From NCBI GenBank assembly GCA_004524595.1, contig SDOA01000130.1:1-10211 (forward strand): DNA of 10,211 bases. The letters are read 5' to 3'. Under the pieces are notes generated by a model. The model made no database searches. It was not told the origin of the DNA and saw only the letters and a program-made list of their open reading frames with translations. This stretch comes from Candidatus Thorarchaeota archaeon (GTDB lineage: Archaea; Asgardarchaeota; Thorarchaeia; Thorarchaeales; Thorarchaeaceae). A program made the position numbers and the translations under genes. The stretch's first letter is position 1. Each line of letters opens with the position of its first letter. Shown here in pieces: positions 6,663 through 10,211 of this stretch.

Positions 6663-8480
6663 ATGCGGGTGTACCTTGATGCGAATTTCTTCATTTCGGG
6701 CTTTTCAGAGCGGCCCAAAGATGTATCGATAATACGAGAAGCCACTGACAAAATAGGAGCTGAATTATGGATTACCAGACAAGTATTCCAAGAGCTCAGA
6801 TGGTATCTTAGGAGAGAGGTTGAAAGTATTATCAATATTGATGAGACACTCTCAAAAGACATCAAATCTTTCATGGAGAGCATCCACAAACCTGAGAGTT
6901 CACTTCCCCAACCCAATGACATGTCATTAATTCTTGGAGCAATGAGGAATAAAAATTCCAAGATAGTCACGAGTGATATGAAATTGTTACAGACCATCCA
7001 AGACCTGAAGGTCGAGGTTGAAGGTATAGTAGGATCTGCATATATTCTTGAGTTGATTGAATCAATCGACAATGAAAAGATGAAAAAAGACCTCATTCAA
7101 ATCCGTGAAAGAATCTACAATGAAGAGGTCAGATACAGTATCTCACGTCAAGAATCATATGACCCTGTAACAAGGATCAGAATCATTGAGGATCACGCTC
7201 TCCGTGTCCTTCGAACTGTTAAACGCCCCGCAGAAGGTCTAGACCGTCGATTGTCAAAAGGTCAACCCCTCTTCGTTTTGGATTTCTTAGAGGATATTAA
7301 GAAAGATGTCCCAACTATGTTCGAAGATTTCCAGAATGGAAGATACGATAGTCTAGCCCTTGAAATTGAGACTGTCCAAAATGAAATCGAACGACTTCTT
7401 ATTGTATCAACACTCACAGAAGACGCTGAAACACATGGGAAACTAGTTCGCCATGCCTCGGATCTAACATTGTTCCTGTATTATCTTGAAATGTTATGTC
7501 ATTTATACAGAGGTACGAAGGAGGGAATCGAGGATGCACTTGCTATCAGCGAAGAAGCATTCAGACTCCTCATGTTTGCAGAGGTAAATAATGATGAACT
7601 AAAGGCCTCGGTTTTCTTCGTCAGAATTCTTCTTGCTCTGATTCGAGAAGACTATCAAGAGATCGATTATTTTTACAGTCTATATGACTCGATGATCAAT
7701 AGGATTGGTCTAGATCAAATGATGGAGACAACAGAAGGTTTCTATGTCACTATGCAAGTTCTTCGCGCAGAAGTTATGGGTGGTTTCAGTCTTACTCACA
7801 ATAAACTGCAATTTGCTGATGTCACAATTTCTATGCTGAATGATATTGCGAAATACAGTCTGTTATTCGATGAACATGATAATGGTTGGCAGTTAGCAGT
7901 AACCGCATATAAAATTGGTATCGCCTATAATCGTGAGGAAGGTTCATTGAATTCATTCCGGATGTTGTACAAGGTCTCATCGTCATCACATGATCGTTTC
8001 AAGCCAGCTCTTGAGAAAATTGCAGAACATGCTCTGAAAGCCTTCGTTAAGAAGGGATGGAATACAAGTCTAGTGACACCAATCCTAAATGAGGTCCAAG
8101 GTCAGATACCACCTATTGAGAAATTAGCTACAAATGGTATCGTTGCAATTAAGAAAGTCCCTAAAGAGCTGATTGGATGGATGGATGTCCTCTCCATAGA
8201 AATCATAGATGGTGAAGAGGTTCTCATAGTACGCAACGAAAATGTACAAGCAAGAGTTGGTGTCAATATTCAATATCATCCTGAGCTTCGTCTACTCAAA
8301 ACAGGACACAAGATTGCACTTACAAATGGCGAGTTCAATATCACAGATGCAAAAATTGATGTAGTCAAAAAGTATTCATTAGTATTGATGATAGAACCCA
8401 GTTCGACTGCGGAGATATCATATGAAGGTGAGTATGGCTTTAGTTGCTTGAAAGTAGCAGCACCTGAAGCTGAAGCATAG
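6663..8480 (+). CDS. PIN-domain nuclease-like protein with large helical and C-terminal beta regions
   Basis: Residues 1-135 form a PIN (PilT N-terminus) fold, a metal-dependent RNase fold. The acidic quartet is visible: D6 in MRVYLDANFF, E44 in VFQEL, D86 in NDMSLILGA and D105 in IVTSDMKLL, with N8 beside the first Asp. All four are intact, so nuclease activity is plausible. Residues about 135-480 are almost entirely helical and amphipathic, as in TPR-like or other alpha-solenoid scaffolds, with conserved-looking pairs such as YYLEMLCHLYRGTKEG and a second half rich in aromatic/hydrophobic helices. Residues about 490-595 look beta-rich (NGIVAIKKVP, EVLIVRNENVQARVGVNIQY, YSLVLMIEPSSTAEISYEGE) and may be a small ligand- or protein-binding domain. 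At 605 residues it is far longer than VapC-type toxins (about 130). There is no signal peptide or TM helix, so it is cytoplasmic. The start is supported by GGAG at 6650-6653. The next gene begins 19 bases after its stop, suggesting co-transcription. RNA target and regulator are unknown. Confidence 0.85.
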   Translation: MRVYLDANFFISGFSERPKDVSIIREATDKIGAELWITRQVFQELRWYLRREVESIINIDETLSKDIKSFMESIHKPESSLPQPNDMSLILGAMRNKNSKIVTSDMKLLQTIQDLKVEVEGIVGSAYILELIESIDNEKMKKDLIQIRERIYNEEVRYSISRQESYDPVTRIRIIEDHALRVLRTVKRPAEGLDRRLSKGQPLFVLDFLEDIKKDVPTMFEDFQNGRYDSLALEIETVQNEIERLLIVSTLTEDAETHGKLVRHASDLTLFLYYLEMLCHLYRGTKEGIEDALAISEEAFRLLMFAEVNNDELKASVFFVRILLALIREDYQEIDYFYSLYDSMINRIGLDQMMETTEGFYVTMQVLRAEVMGGFSLTHNKLQFADVTISMLNDIAKYSLLFDEHDNGWQLAVTAYKIGIAYNREEGSLNSFRMLYKVSSSSHDRFKPALEKIAEHALKAFVKKGWNTSLVTPILNEVQGQIPPIEKLATNGIVAIKKVPKELIGWMDVLSIEIIDGEEVLIVRNENVQARVGVNIQYHPELRLLKTGHKIALTNGEFNITDAKIDVVKKYSLVLMIEPSSTAEISYEGEYGFSCLKVAAPEAEA

Positions 8481-8499: not shown

Positions 8500-8934
8500 T
8501 TGGATATATTGATGTGGGCTATTCTGATATGTATTGTAGGAGTCTTGGCGTACTTTAATTACTATCTCAATCTGGCTCCTGGAACGGATCCAGAGGATTT
8601 CAGAGTTGGTCCACAACAACTTAACATAACCTGCGATTGTTATCTCAATACATTGATTCTTGGAGGTATTCTTGTTCTTGGACTCAGTGCTGGATCATCA
8701 ATATTTTCCTCAAGATTAGAACTCTATCTAGTTGGAGGTATTGCATTTGGTGTTGTGACACTCGCAGGAATTCTAGGGCGACATAGGAGATATGTTGAGT
8801 GGAGAGAATTACATAAGGTAATACAGAGAGCAGTGCCCAAATCTCACCTCATGCAAGGATATAGAAGTCCTGTGGATGTTCTTTTTGATGATGAAGACAA
8901 TAATGATGACGAGTTTGAAATTGACGATTACTAA
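8500..8934 (+). CDS. Small three-TM membrane protein with acidic C-terminal tail
   Basis: I do not recognise a family. The 144-residue protein has a TM helix at about 4-22, a loop of 25-48 containing CDC (C45, C47), and TM helices at about 50-68 and 73-93. A basic/aromatic segment follows (GRHRRYVEWRELHKVIQRAV, 93-112), then a strongly acidic tail (FDDEDNNDDEFEIDDY, 129-144). The RHRR right after the last TM predicts, by the positive-inside rule, a cytoplasmic C-terminal part, so the tail would face the PIN protein. The TTG start is chosen from the tandem AGGA SD. The gene lies 19 bases after the PIN gene and probably shares its transcript. It could tether or restrain the nuclease at the membrane, with the acidic tail acting as nucleic-acid mimic or metal binder; that is inference. 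Confidence 0.8.
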   Translation: MDILMWAILICIVGVLAYFNYYLNLAPGTDPEDFRVGPQQLNITCDCYLNTLILGGILVLGLSAGSSIFSSRLELYLVGGIAFGVVTLAGILGRHRRYVEWRELHKVIQRAVPKSHLMQGYRSPVDVLFDDEDNNDDEFEIDDY

Positions 8935-9066: not shown

Positions 9067-9498
9067 ATGTGGGTAAATATAATGGCTGTACAATCAATTA
9101 AAATGATGCAAGCTGAAAATCGTCTCAAAGAATATGCATTCTCTTTCTTTATCGAAATTGGTTGCTTGAGCCCTGCAACATCAAAATCGTTAATACAACT
9201 TAAAGCTCTTGGTTTTGGTGTTACTGATACAGGTTTGAGATATCTCTTGAAGTACGGGTTTGTTGAAACTCAAGAAGGAAAAATGTATCTTGATATCAAA
9301 AGAGCTCGTTACAAAATTAAAAGAACGATAGTTGGAATGGCATTAGGGCTATTTATAATGAGTGCTATAATTTACTTTATCGAAAGATCAATATTCTACG
9401 GTGTGATTATTACTCCATTACTAGTTATTATTTTCGTATTTGTTTTGATCCCAATCACTGTGTATTATGCAAAACCATTGAAGTATCTAAAATCATAG
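9067..9498 (+). CDS. Winged-helix-like protein with two C-terminal TM helices
   Basis: The protein has 143 residues. About residues 12-75 look like a small helix-turn-helix or winged-helix domain: helices around NRLKEYAFSFFIEIG, PATSKSLIQLKALG and TDTGLRYLLKYGFV, then a short hairpin (VETQEGKMYLDIKRA). The phrase LRYLLKYGFVE matches the usual 'recognition helix then wing' pattern of archaeal transcription regulators. A basic linker (RARYKIKR) leads into two TM helices (about 88-106 and 111-132), ending with a short Lys-rich tail (AKPLKYLKS). It would be a membrane-tethered DNA-binding or protein-binding protein. ATG at 9067 fits a leaderless start; ATG at 9082 (MAVQS) is the alternative. It lies 132 bases after the three-TM gene, with its own likely promoter. 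Family assignment is by pattern only. Confidence 0.7.
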   Translation: MWVNIMAVQSIKMMQAENRLKEYAFSFFIEIGCLSPATSKSLIQLKALGFGVTDTGLRYLLKYGFVETQEGKMYLDIKRARYKIKRTIVGMALGLFIMSAIIYFIERSIFYGVIITPLLVIIFVFVLIPITVYYAKPLKYLKS

Positions 9499-9545: not shown

Positions 9546-9911
9546 TTAATGAAATTCGAATGCATTTTTGTCATCTTCAAGGTTCGGAAACTTGATTGCT
9601 ACTAATCTGCATTCCTCCATAGTCCGAGATTGCATTGAATGATGTTCTCCTGGTTGAACTATTGCAATATCACCAATTTGAAGGTCAATTGATGTATTAT
9701 TTACAATCACTGTCACTGGCGTTAGTGCAATAAATATTTCTTCAAGTATCGCGTGAACATGAGGTTCAGTTTTCATACCAGATGGAATTGAGACAAAGAT
9801 GAAACCTGCAGAATCTAGTTTCTTCGAGAATAGAATGTCTGCAAAATACCTGGCACTATAACCACCACGATCAATTGACTCTGTATCATTAACACGATAA
9901 ACACGAACCAT
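9546..9911 (-). CDS. Single-domain cupin protein
   Basis: A small beta-barrel of about 121 residues. Numbered from the GTG at 9920, cupin motif 1 is SGMKTEPHVHAILEEIF, with metal ligands H54, H56 and E60 or E61. Motif 2 is GDIAIVQPGEHHSM, with the usual PxGxxH shape (P90, G91, H93/H94). Conserved metal ligands suggest a functional metal site. Such stand-alone cupins serve as isomerases, dioxygenases or sugar/ligand sensors, and substrate cannot be inferred. The longest frame starts at GTG 9920, but ATG at 9911 (MVRVYRV) is preferred: a TATA-like AGTTAAAT (9940-9933) lies about 25 bases upstream, consistent with a leaderless transcript. It is a cytoplasmic, monocistronic gene divergent from the GTPase-like gene, with the two start codons 91 bases apart. 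Confidence 0.9.
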   Translation of the reverse strand: MVRVYRVNDTESIDRGGYSARYFADILFSKKLDSAGFIFVSIPSGMKTEPHVHAILEEIFIALTPVTVIVNNTSIDLQIGDIAIVQPGEHHSMQSRTMEECRLVAIKFPNLEDDKNAFEFH

Positions 9912-10002
9912 CGTAATCACAAACTCTGTTGCATTTAACTAATTTAGTTTTCGTCTGTGACCATAAGGTATTAGTTCAAAGAATTTGTTAAGAACAGTGA
10001 GA
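9912..10002. promoter_or_regulatory. Divergent promoter region between cupin and GTPase-like gene
   Basis: This 91-base AT-rich gap must hold signals for both genes. The minus-strand candidate is AGTTAAAT at 9940-9933. On the plus strand AATTTAGTTTT (9941-9951) is the best TATA-like stretch, and GTGA at 9997-10000 is a close-spaced SD-like motif before the ATG at 10003. The two candidate boxes almost touch, so the genes may be co-regulated. Confidence 0.35.
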
Positions 10003-10211
10003 ATGTCTGTTCAAATAGTAAAATCTCGGATGATATTCAAGGTATTAGTATTAGGTCGGGACATCGCTCTTCAGACTGGATTCCTCTGCAGAGCTTCTGG
10101 TAACAATGTTTCAACACAGCTCTTCAATACTTTAGGAGTAAGTCTTGGAGTAGCGAAAAATAATCAAAGAGATGACATTAGTGTTGCTATTCAGCTTTGG
10201 GTTCTTCCACA
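10003..10211 (+). CDS. Ras/Rab-like GTPase-fold protein with degenerate nucleotide site (partial, 5' end)
   Basis: The window ends after 69 codons. The segment MIFKVLVLGRDIALQT matches the first strand and P-loop of small GTPases. FNTLGV matches the switch I region (Thr T43), and VAIQLWVLP matches the strand that normally ends in W-D-x-A-G. The spacing from T25 to T43 is 18 residues, the same as Ser17 to Thr35 in Ras, which supports the alignment. However, G1 reads G-R-D-I-A-L-Q-T instead of GxxxxGKT, so the second Gly is Leu and the phosphate-binding Lys is Gln (Q24). In G3, Asp is Val (V67) and the residue in the Ala position is Pro. G4 and G5 are beyond the edge. It therefore probably binds GTP weakly or not at all and may be a pseudo-GTPase. 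The frame is intact, which argues against recent decay. The ATG at 10003 has only a close GTGA; ATG at 10030 is an alternative. Confidence 0.65.
   Translation, partial: MSVQIVKSRMIFKVLVLGRDIALQTGFLCRASGNNVSTQLFNTLGVSLGVAKNNQRDDISVAIQLWVLP

Follow-up and report, generated by a model that had tools for sequence, protein, structure and literature searches.

We analysed a complete Thorarchaeota contig of 10,211 bases (hereafter the window) whose end cuts through an open reading frame encoding the first part of a small GTPase-like protein. The fragment is the start of a genuine gene, and the gene probably encodes a nucleotide-independent (class i) pseudo-GTPase adaptor, in which a pseudo-Rab domain stripped of its G motifs is joined to a cysteine-rich domain. 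The analysis shows homology, a Rab fold by prediction, loss of the motifs and maintenance by purifying selection, and it finds the two domains paired in the same way elsewhere in the phylum.

Homology and conservation of the truncated gene

Direct searches with the fragment returned little: there was no match in Pfam or NCBIfam, no relative in the genome contigs and nothing in the protein database, and phmmer with the fragment alone against PDB sequences gave weak hits to Rab3A (E 0.012) and Rab9A (E 0.023). Because the fragment is short and fast-evolving, the neighbouring PIN-domain gene was taken as an anchor (605 residues, 93% identity to a Candidatus Thorarchaeota archaeon protein). It led to 34 related contigs, of which 30 carry Thorarchaeota in their titles, two Lokiarchaeota and two just 'archaeon'. 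Relatives of the fragment (32–64% identity) were found at the corresponding position in 20 of these loci, after the PIN gene, its downstream neighbour and, where present, the cupin gene, and complete orthologue frames were approximately 370 residues long. A profile was built from 18 of those 20 loci, without the fragmentary L014 and without L021, which has masked bases. Against this profile, which does not include it, the fragment scored 94.5 bits, while the best listed score among 2,000 letter shuffles of it was 8.3. The profile also retrieved 34 database proteins of 274–384 residues, all Thorarchaeota where an organism was named, together with one eukaryotic small GTPase (E 8.5e-5). The fragment aligned with all 34 orthologues (33–78% identity over 34–69 residues, with 5 gap positions in total), and its ATG at 10003 agrees with where P0132, P0142 and others begin. 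Judged by these alignments and scores, the resemblance of the fragment to small GTPases is above chance.

The predicted structure agrees with a small GTPase origin, giving a Rab fold and not the unrelated fold that the earlier note had named as a possible refutation; the structural comparison bears chiefly on the residues up to 161. Among proteins of solved structure, Rabs come closest in sequence profile as well as in fold, and the Thorarchaeota Rab 7ezb is among the Foldseek matches of the model. A tie to Rag or to dynein light intermediate chain (LIC), as raised in that note, is therefore unsupported; neither Gtr1_RagA nor dynein LIC has a row among the Pfam families listed for nine members, although absence from this listing does not exclude LIC. 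A G-domain tree was built from 54 of 92 aligned sequences (every third row of the Thorarchaeota class and all 35 others; alignment described below). A constraint placing all G domains that carry the cysteine-rich domain in one group was not rejected (p-AU 0.375), and the long branches advise caution against further reading. Five members (L133, L078, L083, L080 and L084) grouped with canonical GTPases with high support, next to the intact L163, which may represent a second fusion or an ancestral state.

The gene was found in 26 of the 47 genomes of the Genome Taxonomy Database (GTDB) class to which L013 belongs (E 1e-20 or better), including one with only the C-terminal part at a contig end (G194) and two with the gene in two pieces (G203, G219). 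Among the 28 matches listed in these genomes, 22 cover nearly the whole profile. Three loci (L015, L025 and L026) have the PIN gene without this gene, yet carry it elsewhere in the genome, outside the fetched locus. A decaying pseudogene or chance frame might be suspected, given that the window holds only 69 codons and that the slot is empty in six related loci. Such an explanation is highly improbable and is largely contradicted already by full-length orthologues that share motif replacements and are under purifying selection, and by the profile score of the fragment. The orthologue frames are open, without the frameshifts or stops that would mark decay: the lone TAA marked, in the G209 match (the genome position of L012), is by coordinates the gene's own stop at the match end (frame end 13947 of the locus). 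The pair L011–L009 had a dN of 0.119 against a dS of 1.14, and the ratio was similar for the two domains; three further pairs with finite dS (1.6–1.8) had dN/dS near 0.1, and in the remaining seven pairs, where dS was saturated or higher, pN/pS was 0.23–0.45. Purifying selection on the orthologues is evident, and the gene is therefore maintained.

Degradation of the nucleotide-binding motifs

Within the fragment, the motif assignments made in the earlier note were reproduced. Residues 18–25 align with the P-loop consensus GxxxxGK[ST], with Gln24 in place of Lys and Leu23 in place of Gly; the spacing of Thr43 in 'NTLG' is right for switch I; and Val67, within W66-V67-L68-P69, stands in place of the G3 Asp.

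Motif loss across the family was assessed in 92 aligned rows, which are the members of a set of 103 non-identical proteins with the cysteine-rich C-terminal domain (C-domain) that have a long N-terminal part (at least 150 residues) ahead of it; the other 11 have fewer than 150. Each row is a database protein or a stop-to-stop frame, admitted by the length of its N-terminal part and not by a G-domain score. The 57 class rows comprise the database proteins and the loci up to L065, among which L031 and L033 are titled Lokiarchaeota; four proteins are doubled (L013/P0126, L004/P0125, L024/P0134 and L022/P0146), leaving 53 distinct. The P-loop Lys is absent from every class row and is replaced by Gln in 47 of the 57, the following residue being Thr in 38; outside the class, Lys is kept in 26 of 35 rows. 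The G3 Asp is likewise absent from all class rows (24 Ser, 18 Ala, 9 Thr, 6 Leu), whereas the 35 others include 15 with Asp and 14 with Asn. Val at the G3 position is the window's own and occurs in none of the 57 class rows.

The loss extends beyond the two sites named in the earlier note. G1 and G3 are indeed lost, but G4 and G5, which lie beyond the window, are degraded as well in the orthologues. At aligned positions, none of the 92 rows has the Gly that precedes the P-loop Lys or the Gly of G3, and none has NKxD or SAK complete; single letters survive in some (D119 in 27 rows, K117 in 10). The pattern GxxxxGK[ST] was found in none of the C-domain rows but in all 44 control paralogues, which came from six of the genomes and were picked by their Ras-family score. 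Two residues were retained despite this degradation: the Trp before the G3 Asp (57/57 class rows, 32/35 others) and the Gly after switch II (57/57 and 33/35, respectively). On sequence evidence, the family lacks the intact G1, G3 and G4 that define a canonical small GTPase or Rab, and the combination of a predicted Ras-like fold with missing G motifs corresponds to two of the features that define class i pseudo-GTPases.

Thorarchaeota also have another Ras-family protein with degenerate motifs, which lacks the C-domain and is encoded at L032:8810-9469 (minus strand; 220-residue frame, Ras E 1.5e-12), with GSDGPIKQ at the P-loop and WVLSS at G3. It had been considered as an intact reference GTPase and was dropped, being itself degenerate, and is excluded from the counts.

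The cysteine-rich domain and competing explanations

Complete orthologues, about 370 residues long, have two domains and a helical tail: the N-terminal domain (residues ~1–165) descends from a Rab/Ras-like GTPase and is without its nucleotide-binding motifs, and the C-terminal domain spans residues ~190–306. The C-terminal domain contains C-x2-C-x3-C-x6-C plus one more cysteine. In alignment A3, made from 27 of the 34 database proteins together with 11 loci of Thorarchaeota and 20 of the outgroup, cysteines 239, 242, 253 and 299 are present in all 58 rows and cysteine 246 in 56 (P0151 numbering); the pattern suggests that they probably bind a metal. No match to this domain was found among PDB sequences at E 10, and Pfam searches with 25 members gave nothing beyond stray rows, the best at E 0.0044 in a single member. 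At E 1e-4 the domain was detected in 75 of the 227 genomes searched in the phylum, which is taken to be Asgard from the titles of the loci. Stand-alone relatives also occur (L122, L123 and L125, 142–146 aa; L124, 159 aa), in which C-x2-C-x3-C is gone and one cysteine is kept.

The family has given up the pocket but still has the Trp that precedes the G3 Asp and the Gly that follows switch II, so the Rab domain would no longer bind GTP and may serve as a fixed protein–protein docking surface; the face around these residues is the one used by Rab effectors. With a metal and a second partner on the cysteine domain, the protein would act as a constitutive adaptor and not as a switch.

Two other functional explanations were weighed. 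The protein might belong to class ii, binding nucleotide without hydrolysis in a rebuilt pocket, perhaps with another ligand. The P-loop Lys retained by most members outside the class is in line with this, as is the conservation within the class of the replacement itself (Gln, followed by Thr). However, G4 and G5 read the guanine base, and neither is complete in any of the 92 rows; we regard class ii as improbable. It is also unlikely, though somewhat easier to entertain, that the protein is a partner subunit, the pseudo-Rab half of an unequal pair whose other half, an intact small GTPase, it joins or blocks. This is kept alive by Arf/RagA-like GTPases near the gene in outgroup loci: in L153, one such locus scanned with Pfam, the gene lies two genes from such a protein (Arf E 4e-23, Gtr1_RagA E 8.4e-20), BLAST relatives of which lie near the gene in eight of 20 outgroup loci, some with intervening genes, and the retained Rab surface residues bear on it too. 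In Thorarchaeota, by contrast, the downstream neighbours (SLOG, metallophosphoesterase, DUF362, UbiA and PHP) include no GTPase, and gene neighbourhood by itself is weak evidence for a partner subunit.

Several observations weigh against the nucleotide-independent adaptor. The window holds 69 codons only, its C-terminal domain being deduced from orthologues. Pfam sequence support for the G domain is under the curated cut-off (Roc E 0.001–0.006 in five of nine members, none of the kind in four). The control paralogues tilt toward intact motifs because they were picked by Ras-family score, and a windowed DxxG pattern passes in 36 of these 44, partly from the short stretch searched; unaligned [NT]KxD and D-x-x-G occur in eight and four of the 92 rows, none at aligned positions. 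Given the Lys retained in 26 of 35 rows, weak or altered nucleotide binding is possible outside the class, and the accessible parts of two sources describe proteins with degraded motifs that can bind nucleotide, namely the p190RhoGAP N-terminal domain and Rnd (PMC10211241, PMC5593906). Finally, six Thorarchaeota loci (L001, L005, L020, L023, L027 and L030) keep the cupin, SLOG and phosphoesterase order without the gene between them, and the best matches in their genomes are weak and of GTPase kind (E 3.8e-7 to 1.2e-4); the gene is thus dispensable.

More broadly, and only tentatively, nucleotide-independent Rabs may have arisen Asgard-wide by fusion to one cysteine domain. Loss would have been stepwise: the Gly residues of the P-loop and of G3 would have gone first, along with the motifs that read guanine (missing from all 92 rows), and Thorarchaeota would later have lost Lys and Asp as well, perhaps with two separate Rab lineages involved. 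Because some members still have the P-loop Lys and the G3 Asp and others are fully stripped, the family forms a graded series in which the order of loss can be worked out. Asgards are the closest known prokaryotic kin of eukaryotes, and their small GTPases, of which six Asgard genomes had 22 to 75 Ras-family matches each, are regarded as forerunners of eukaryotic switches. A conserved family without the switch but with some of the Rab surface left suggests a scaffold role for the fold in archaea too; if the Asgard-wide proposal holds, GTP-free Rab scaffolds would have preceded membrane traffic in eukaryotes or existed alongside it. The cysteine domain, kept in many genomes of the phylum, is itself uncharacterised.

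Genomic context and comparison with known systems

Features of the window are listed in Table 1. The cupin gene has the same position in most related loci. The window also encodes, in the interval that separates the cupin gene from the conserved neighbour, a 143-residue protein (9067-9498, plus strand) that looks like an insertion or orphan, because tblastn at E 0.01 found no match in the 34 related loci. Downstream of the gene, SLOG was present in 16 and metallophosphoesterase in 15 of the 20 Thorarchaeota loci with the gene, and L007:13887-18082 illustrates the stable order SLOG, metallophosphoesterase, DUF362, UbiA, PHP. This operon logic was rejected as a functional guide because six loci share the gene order without the gene and outgroup neighbourhoods differ. 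Among the outgroup loci L142–L157, for example at L153:4785-7777, the order is degenerate Rab, UPF0047 protein, Arf/RagA-like GTPase.

Table 1. Features of the pseudo-Rab gene fragment and its neighbours in the window
Feature	Position	Strand	Basis
5' part (69 codons) of pseudo-Rab gene, running off the contig end	10003..10211	+	Open frame, relatives, orthologues
Degenerate P-loop (G1), GRDIALQT for GxxxxGK[ST]	10054..10077	+	Aligned columns
Switch I (G2) region, T-L-G retained	10129..10137	+	Aligned columns
Degenerate G3, W-V-L-P for W-D-x-x-G	10198..10209	+	Aligned columns
PIN-domain protein, synteny anchor	6663..8480	+	PIN_12 E 2.8e-6, under curated cut-off
Conserved neighbour without Pfam family	8500..8934	+	Hydrophobic stretches by eye
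Cupin gene, upstream neighbour on the opposite strand	9546..9920	-	Cupin_2 E 1e-5, under curated cut-off

Compared with Rabs (Ypt7/Rab7, Rab1, Rab8 and 7ezb), the family has the G-domain fold and profile, the Trp of WDxxG and the Gly after switch II, but differs in its degraded G1, G3, G4 and G5 and its fused cysteine domain. Rag/Gtr GTPases are similar in having a GTPase domain followed by a C-terminal domain, although in Rag the latter is a roadblock domain and the G motifs work. The C-terminal prenylation cysteines of eukaryotic Rabs are absent, P0151 ending in ...TQEWRT without a terminal cysteine, and the archaeal Thor-Rab likewise has no C-terminal prenylation extension according to the available portion of its description (PMC10933270). 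The accessible main text of this Asgard Rab structure paper contains no word starting with 'pseudo' (PMC10933270). No report of an Asgard pseudo-GTPase or of this family was found in the literature searched, which lacked most subscription papers and all bioRxiv preprints.

EhRabX10 of Entamoeba reportedly has a Rab-like domain without G motifs, and we know of no such C-terminal cysteine domain in EhRabX3 or EhRabX10; these proteins are eukaryotic whereas the family is archaeal, and they are compared by description, not by origin. EhRabX3, an Entamoeba pseudo-Rab, resembles the family in its Rab-like domain without G motifs, as far as the excerpt of PMC5593906 describes it. The same excerpt counts p190RhoGAP pG1/pG2, CENP-M and fungal dynein LIC among the class i pseudo-GTPases (PMC5593906), and pseudo-GTPases are presented as scaffolds or activators in the portion available of PMC10211241. 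The family appears similar to class i in its Ras-like fold and degraded G motifs, with nucleotide binding not expected (PMC5593906, in part). Unlike the eukaryotic class i examples, the family is archaeal and Rab-like and carries a cysteine domain, the relationship seen being that of the fold.
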